Source of the DNA: a virus
Direction: 5' to 3' (one strand)
Length of the DNA stretch: 64,000 nt
IMG/VR virus record: IMGVR_UViG_3300031758_000017
Span: 1 to 64,000 of that record
Shown: piece by piece, positions 10,156-26,664 of the stretch
How the letters are laid out: each line of letters starts with the position of its first letter
Numbering within the stretch: the first letter of the stretch is position 1
The notes under the pieces: model-generated
What the model was told of the DNA's origin: nothing
Database searches by the model: none
What the model saw: the letters and a program-made list of their open reading frames with translations, nothing else
Program-made: the position numbers and the translations under genes

Positions 10156-10274
10156 TAAAAACTGTAAAAATAGACGTTGACAATACCCGAATAAATGAGT
10201 ATATTTTTATAATAAAAATAGATATAGATAAGACTGTAGATTTAAATGGCATTAATAAAAATAAACACAGGTAA
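10152..10274 (+). CDS. Possible 40-residue ORF bridging two giant genes
   Basis: ATGA overlaps the stop of the 1414-residue gene, and the frame runs 40 codons to TAA at 10272-10274, overlapping the start of the giant gene by 29 bases. The peptide alternates charged and hydrophobic residues (KTVKIDVDN, FIIKIDIDKTVDL) as a beta hairpin might. It could be real or could be a leader region that happens to be open. No homologue is recognised. Confidence 0.3.
   Translation: MIKTVKIDVDNTRINEYIFIIKIDIDKTVDLNGINKNKHR

Positions 10275-26664: not shown

Follow-up and report, generated by a model that had tools for sequence, protein, structure and literature searches.

The window, a stretch of 64,000 nucleotides (bases 1-64,000 of the 112,552-bp virus record IMGVR_UViG_3300031758_000017), belongs to a freshwater jumbo phage and encodes on its plus strand a protein of 5,472 residues (positions 10246..26664, ATG start) that carries a hydroxyl residue at nearly every second position over most of its length. 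The reading that we favour, at odds just short of even, is of a mucin-like tether that is borne on the tail, glycosylated by the phage and presents Cys-rich modules. Its place on the phage tail is probable, and, given such a tether, glycosylation of the tract by a GT60 glycosyltransferase of the phage itself has somewhat better than even prospects. As an earlier note on this DNA had reported, the frame is uninterrupted, with zero internal stops in 5,472 codons, and its middle is a Thr-alternating tract of about 4,900 residues (here 4,965 residues in four blocks). The remaining frames of the gene contain 336 and 272 stops in the sense and 100, 53 and 778 in the antisense direction. The chain is made up largely of T (2,471), P (1,095), N (792) and V (472), and has a predicted mass of 564 kDa without sugars.

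In the Thr/Pro-rich blocks, Thr takes 92-97.5% of the positions of one parity and 0-0.6% of those of the other. The main block (block 2 in Table 1) has 1,965 T and 42 S at its 2,016 parity positions, and the nine exceptions, all Ala, sit in a repeated motif, TRTPAATVSPT. Block limits were set by T+P+S content, a choice that favours Ser and Thr overall and not on one parity. Like a mucin, the protein has a long tract rich in Pro, Thr and Ser with dense hydroxyls, at 2,478 Thr and Ser among the 4,965 tract residues. The same parity was found in the tracts of six relatives (L012, L021 and the partial L014, L015, L017 and L019), where Thr and Ser together fill 99.4-99.8% of one parity in the longest block of each, and Thr alone 54-79%. 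L012, a close relative whose protein upstream of the tract is 97% identical to that of the window, has a tract of TPSVTPSE type in a 2,940-residue protein; the L021 homologue (2,737 residues) and the four partial ones have tract sequences that are different again. Because Ser and Thr swap across the six relatives while parity holds, the conserved property is the hydroxyl group on alternate residues, and not Thr itself.

The codons indicate how this regularity is maintained. At a lag of 42 nt across residues 777-4807, identity is 0.83 at codon position 1, 0.82 at position 2 and 0.35 at position 3. Identical residues at lags of 2-199 residues share their codon at a rate of 34.2%, compared with 34.0% once synonymous codons are shuffled. 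Synonymous sites of the tract are close to saturated. The regularity therefore lies at the protein level, since third positions are free and positions 1 and 2 are not, and homogenisation, which would copy third positions along with the others, cannot yield saturated synonymous sites. Most of the tract is old, with selection acting at the protein level, and slippage and gene conversion do not account for the hydroxyl parity. In engineered repetitive genes, codon scrambling is used to encode a repetitive protein with non-repetitive synonymous codons; the phage tract differs in being natural, and the shuffle test shows no active repeat avoidance, which we rejected as exact repeats exceed the shuffle expectation. 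Antisense coding was considered since the VGVG frames share the degenerate positions, with Asn as the control: 764 of the 810 AAN codons end in a pyrimidine (46 encode Lys), compared with 60% of the 2,411 Thr codons (Fisher p ~1e-89). As AAN codons favour pyrimidine ends beyond Thr codons, the sense frame is the selected one, and this rule, together with the 53-778 stops, rules out antisense coding.

The length of the tract was compared across 13 other records of the same phage (100% match to the upstream protein), which bear different IMG sample numbers, although the sites may not be independent. Among them is a longer record of 288,260 bp (G015), whose identity with the window extends from position 10152 over 10,024 bp on the upstream side and 53,848 bp on the downstream side. 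Five of the 13 (L079, L080, L081, L084 and G015) share an identical 16,512 bp; three stop within the tract with zero mismatches up to there, one diverges 538 bp short of its end, and four are shorter by 253, 268, 430 and 310 bp. In three of these four the first difference falls at 22853-22987, at the longest exact repeat of the gene (116 bp, 22873 vs 23161, spaced by 288 bp; the next longest is 83 bp), and in the fourth at 21874. All four deletions equal 1 mod 3, so that the net effect would be a broken frame, and we read these versions as assembly joins. Agreement of five records over 16.5 kb, and the frame break in each of the four shorter ones, make an assembly artefact an unlikely source of the length, which is real to the extent that assembled contigs can show. 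The earlier expectation that the protein would exceed a micrometre holds for the contour, 1.2-1.5 µm at an assumed rise of 0.25-0.31 nm per residue, and not for the end-to-end span, expected to be ~60-190 nm for a flexible chain with assumed persistence lengths of 1-15 nm.

The tract gene lies in the tail region of a contractile-tailed phage, as G015 encodes tail sheath (phrog_23) and baseplate wedge (phrog_6) families; terminase and the major head protein (phrog_138) were recognised as well. The wedge gene is at G015:92902-94734 and the tract gene follows later, at G015:107949. The closest listed cultured terminases, from Microcystis phage Mel-JY01 and the Flavobacterium phages immuto, are only 28-29% identical. 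Directly upstream is a 1,414-residue protein, a putative tail protein by gene order and by weak Tail_P2_I matches (two of 16 members, best E 0.14). Its relatives link it to the tract: among 34 that we read (near-full matches among 74 upstream-protein loci, with the 13 same-phage copies excluded), the C-terminus runs on in frame into a Thr/Pro-rich tract in 23 and does not in 11, although several of the 23 are near copies and the number of lineages is smaller. Since the two are fused in relatives, the two products are expected to sit together. Among the 11 without fusion, L018 has the tract on a separate protein and L033 ends 35 residues further without a tract. A separate 330-residue protein in L026 was rejected, the frame being the tail end of a fused protein. 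In one relative (L268, G033:107768-115879), upstream protein and tract form a single protein of 2,703 residues. What the earlier note had called a virion fibre or tether next to baseplate genes is upheld as to phage origin and tail/baseplate block, most strongly by the fusion in relatives, while its presence in virions is probable. The 16-member profile of the upstream protein had no sequence match in PDB, and an AlphaFold2 model of its residues 301-640 was discarded (mean predicted local distance difference test, pLDDT, of 37.7).

Glycosylation genes occupy two islands in this phage. Island 1, at the end of the window, encodes sugar epimerases, GT2-type glycosyltransferases and FkbM methyltransferases, and five of its 15 genes tested had no glyco-enzyme match. 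Island 2, at ~265-282 kb of G015, opens with two tandem genes matching PF11397 (E 3.1e-72 and 7.1e-48; 244.4 and 164.3 bits vs a cut-off of 21), which we take to correspond to CAZy family GT60; polypeptide alpha-GlcNAc-transferases of that family act on Thr/Ser or hydroxyproline of polypeptides. The tandem pair occurs in eight of 33 records gathered via the upstream protein or the terminase (G015 and seven more); by their coordinates, G004 and G010 end ahead of the region, and G033, a fused relative of 245 kb, had no PF11397 match but may not cover it. Island 2 also contains a RuBisCO-like protein (L106:12967-14196, G015:272967-274196; PF00016, E 1.1e-31, 409 residues). A cluster of 23 tRNAs for many amino acids is found in L093:573-5473 of G015; the 112-kb record, which does not reach this region, has none. 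Because the set is broad and its Thr, Pro, Asn and Val tRNAs are only some among many, a special tRNA supply for the tract was rejected.

GT60 and alternating tracts tend to be found in the same viruses, although each also occurs without the other. From 80 listed matches to a scan for 20 alternating Thr, we took records of at least 40 kb, leaving out the own record of the window's phage, and detected PF11397 in 12 of 41 (11 of the first 25, which were hand-picked, and one of the remaining 16). In a random set, made up of 25 of the 28 records of at least 20 kb among 80 listed, one had PF11397, and two carried a tract, including the one with PF11397. Pooled, PF11397 is present in 13 of 43 records with a tract and in none of 23 without (Fisher p 0.0025). 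The reverse comparison started from 80 loci kept and used every GT60-bearing record among them that reaches 87 kb and does not belong to the clade, 22 in total. An alternating run of 12 Thr is present in 18 of them, compared with none of 17 NrdA-bearing records (those of at least 72 kb among 80, all from one phage group; p 2e-7); read backwards as a control, the pattern matched two of the 18, seven times and once. In general, uncultivated viral contigs often contain Thr-alternating runs with 20 Thr or more, at no fewer than 120 loci. The longest hydroxyl-alternating run among the 120 loci listed spans 876 residues, which is no fair ranking as the loci were cut to 1.3-15 kb and the entry for the window's own phage shows just 430. 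Of the complete proteins that we read, L012 comes closest in length, with a block of 2,532 residues.

Cultured phages share parts of this arrangement. When the phage GT60 was searched against INPHARED, three of 50,697 records matched at E 1e-5 with 45-48% identity: Xanthomonas phage XacN1 and Stenotrophomonas phages CM1 and RAS14, likewise jumbo phages with a GT60 homologue but with different hosts. The hydroxyl-alternating pattern matched 284 times in XacN1 and 148 times in RAS14, against 2 and 4 for the backward-read control. Unlike the window's phage, XacN1 has short tracts; the longest run is 208 residues, in ORF384 (2,823 residues), among the four tract-holding open reading frames (ORFs) read (ORF174, ORF180, ORF190 and ORF384). 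The portions of the XacN1 report drawn on here describe at least two virion glycoproteins by proteomics, without stating there which proteins these are, and suggest the phage's own glycosyltransferases ORF328 and ORF334 as the enzymes (PMC5852040). Our GT60 match in XacN1 is ORF334.

GT60 itself is, according to the excerpted account, recognised from enzymes of Dictyostelium and Trypanosoma cruzi and associated with mucin-type O-glycosylation starting with N-acetylglucosamine (PMC8724618). The Thr/Pro domain of T. cruzi gp72, described in the part of the source used here as the likely carrier of phosphate-linked glycans, reads PTVTPTPPLTPTPTPEVT... and is close in style to the phage tract, a likeness of acceptor and not of linkage (PMC3630849). 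The protist system resembles that of the phage in having a Thr/Pro-alternating acceptor-like sequence and PF11397 enzymes in the same genome. It differs in that the phage is a bacterial virus with no Golgi whose glycosylation is predicted, and in that the phage tract is ~110 times the length of the 45-residue gp72 domain. The tail hairs (whiskers) of phage CBB are likewise long, thin appendages (119 nm) of a contractile-tailed jumbo phage but, in the sections consulted, they are placed on the tail shaft and not the baseplate, and their genes are given by the authors as unknown (PMC5259590). Literature searches returned no described phage Thr/Pro or mucin-like virion protein within the phrasings tried.

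The folded N-terminal domain that had been proposed is supported by an AlphaFold2 model in which residues 1 to ~66 form a six-stranded beta fold (mean pLDDT 90.5). A profile search (hmmsearch) found 23 such domains in 22 loci, which open other Thr/Pro-tract proteins and in ~20 of 23 cases run, by eye, directly into a Pro/Thr stretch; the profile undercounts, as it missed the long-tract homologues L012, L017 and L021. The same phage has a second protein with this domain (L095:12194-13117, G015:52194-53120), which also has a short TPSxTPS tract and matches phrog_17517 (tail) at its C-terminus. The C-terminal region does hold three Cys-rich segments, as the earlier note had it, which we divide into about five modules. 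Their 38 Cys (residues 4808-5472) flank tract blocks as in mucins; homology to mucin Cys domains did not turn up, and none was specifically sought. By eye, C1 is also recognisable at the C-terminus of the L012 homologue and of the L021 homologue, while a profile search with it matched no other locus; profile searches gave L021, L152 and L194 as relatives of C3 and L012 and L021 as relatives of C5. The fold of the N-terminal domain retrieved nothing under E 0.001 from PDB and BFVD. The N-terminal and Cys-rich pieces, scanned without the tract, had no PHROGs match and none in Pfam above cut-off (C2-C3 vs Lum_binding, E 0.014, being below it), and neither the N-terminal domain, the C-terminal modules nor the upstream protein had a tblastn match in the 50,697 phage records. 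The motif in the break between blocks 1 and 2 recurs in L021 and L026 despite the differing tract around it and was not found in 11 other relatives scanned, several of them partial.

Table 1 Features of the tract protein and of associated genes (window positions unless a locus is given).
Feature	Position	Strand	Basis or remark
Upstream protein, 1,414 residues	5911..10155	+	
N-terminal domain, residues 1 to ~67	10246..10446	+	AlphaFold2, six-stranded beta fold
Tract block 1, residues 71-755	10456..12510	+	98.8% Thr/Ser on one parity
Break with SCDIDYTxLPSP motif, residues 756-776	12511..12573	+	Motif scan; also in L021, L026
Tract block 2 (main block), residues 777-4807 (4,031 residues)	12574..24666	+	2,007/2,016 parity positions Thr/Ser
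Cys-rich module C1, residues 4808-4889, 6 Cys	24667..24912	+	
Tract block 3, residues 4890-4997	24913..25236	+	98.2% Thr/Ser on one parity
Cys-rich modules C2-C3, residues 4998-5174, 16 Cys	25237..25767	+	C2 and C3 match each other
Tract block 4, residues 5175-5315	25768..26190	+	95.8% Thr/Ser on one parity
C-terminal Cys-rich modules C4-C5, residues 5316-5472, 16 Cys, plus stop	26191..26664	+	
Protein of 854 residues, shorter Pro/Thr tracts between modules	26709..29273	+	phrog_15511 match
Pro/Thr-tract protein, 282 residues	29337..30185	+	phrog_15511 match
Protein of 973 residues, Pro/Thr tracts and Cys-rich modules	30565..33486	+	phrog_15511 match
Glycosylation island 1	56010..63981, continuing in L002:344-4119	-	Pfam: sugar epimerases, GT2-type glycosyltransferases, FkbM methyltransferases
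PF11397 pair (G015)	L106:5375-6631 and 6642-7907		Pfam

Downstream of the tract gene stand three proteins matching phrog_15511, a family of unknown function; these neighbours have shorter tracts, and the 5,472-residue protein is far longer. Nine neighbour proteins had no Pfam match, and PHROGs gave one match among them, phrog_15511. Elsewhere in G015, an 844-residue protein directly ahead of the sheath gene (L096:1770-4304, G015:61770-64304) has a Thr/Ser/Pro tract followed by repeats with GGxFTSYSG-like motifs. At 45950-47059 of the window, a protein with a degenerate PIVEEQPVIVEE repeat tail is overlapped by long antisense ORFs.

Several other explanations can be set against a glycosylated tether. 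The tract could be an unmodified entropic spacer on the virion, a disordered Thr/Pro linker that sets the distance and flexibility between baseplate and adhesin and alternates merely for solubility and to avoid poly-Pro ribosome stalling. This would agree with the fusion to the upstream protein in relatives, with the strongly varying length of the tract proteins (L012 and L021) and with the lack of Pro-Pro in the tract blocks save at the very end of block 4 (residue 5314). However, Ala, Gly, Gln or Asn should be acceptable in a pure spacer, and the main block departs from Thr/Ser by nine Ala alone over ~2,000 positions; six tracts of different composition all keep their hydroxyls on one parity; and the co-occurrence with GT60 is left unexplained. 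We consider a plain spacer unlikely. A large decoy or coat, secreted or released during or after infection, is a good deal more doubtful: the closest subclade does have its tract on a separate polypeptide, but in the 23 fused relatives the tract is covalently part of a protein of the tail block.

A regular fibrous fold, in which Thr/Ser on one strand face makes an ice-binding-like or beta-fibre ladder that is rigid without sugars, is improbable. Strict alternation would turn all hydroxyls to the same side of a beta strand, and parity is conserved; yet the main block has Pro at 845 of its 2,015 off-parity positions, which interrupts beta-sheet hydrogen bonding, and the remaining off-parity residues vary (N, V, L, K, R, A, Q). 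Ice-binding proteins and beta-fibres bear their TxT face on proline-poor beta strands, and the main block does not fit that pattern. Least credible is drift of repeats by slippage and unequal crossing-over, with homogenisation instead of selection and possibly inflated by assembly, which is largely contradicted by the data. Exact repeats do exceed the expectation from synonymous shuffling (1,041 repeated 30-mers vs 35; longest repeat of 116 bp vs at most 53 bp in 100 shuffles), so that part of the tract is recent duplication, and four records have shorter versions. However, third positions differ about as random synonymous choice would have them, although homogenisation copies them, five other records are identical across 16,512 bp, and the four shorter versions all break the frame, three of them beginning to differ at the one long repeat.

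Apart from this recently duplicated share of the tract, a number of observations weigh against a tether glycosylated by GT60. The GT60 pair lies ~140 kb away from the tract gene, its substrates could be other proteins or lipids, and it had no sequence match in PDB, its transferase activity being predicted from the family. According to the sections of the XacN1 report cited above, its authors saw no tail fibres by electron microscopy and no tail-fibre homologue (PMC5852040). The forward association became weaker once the 16 left-out long records were added: 29 of the 41 tract-bearing records, many of which are fragments, have no detected PF11397, and one of the 12 that do (L140/G046, the same contig as L269) belongs to the window's own clade. 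Correcting for the number of bases searched raises the pooled p value to ~0.03, and the association statistics ignore kinship. Conversely, with a Ser-tolerant pattern that misses AGY serines, no tract was seen in four of the 22 GT60-bearing records or in five of the 17 NrdA-bearing records, which have PF11397. The GT60-bearing G028, G029 and G031 of the own clade match neither tract pattern and may not cover the gene.

If the tether reading is right, the protein would be anchored by its N-terminal beta domain or, as in most relatives read, by direct fusion to the upstream protein. The stalk would be an extended, non-folding [Thr/Ser]-X chain of ~4,900 residues in which Pro, within the main block, comes no more often than at every fourth residue, and the Cys-rich modules at its far end may contact the host or the surroundings. 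The hydroxyl on every second residue would be conserved because it is O-glycosylated. The phage GT60 would add the first sugar, presumably an N-acetylhexosamine (HexNAc) by family precedent, to tract-type peptide ((TPTNTPTNTVTP)n), and the glycosyltransferase islands might extend or decorate it. The outcome would be a stiff, protease-resistant, mucin-like brush. One HexNAc on each of the 2,478 tract hydroxyls would add 503 kDa.

More tentatively, and with the balance somewhat against it, phages may own a mucin system: virion stalks with strict hydroxyl alternation, glycosylated by GT60 and decorated by islands, in several jumbo-phage lineages. If so, the 5,472-residue protein would be the largest example met here, exceeding 1 MDa with one HexNAc per hydroxyl. 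Taken singly, Pro/Thr linkers, tail fibres, GT60 enzymes and glycoproteins of phages are known; if their combination were demonstrated, it would amount to a phage mucin. Bacteriophages would then rely on mucin chemistry to build tail tethers, using members of the enzyme family by which protists initiate mucin O-glycans. This would give the glycosyltransferase islands of jumbo phages a job and might explain why virions such as those of XacN1 contain glycoproteins. Particles with the predicted sugar brush might attach to lectins, escape proteolysis or stick to host capsule or mucus. With the hydroxyl-parity test and GT60 as a marker, the idea can be searched for in genomes and tested on cultured phages.
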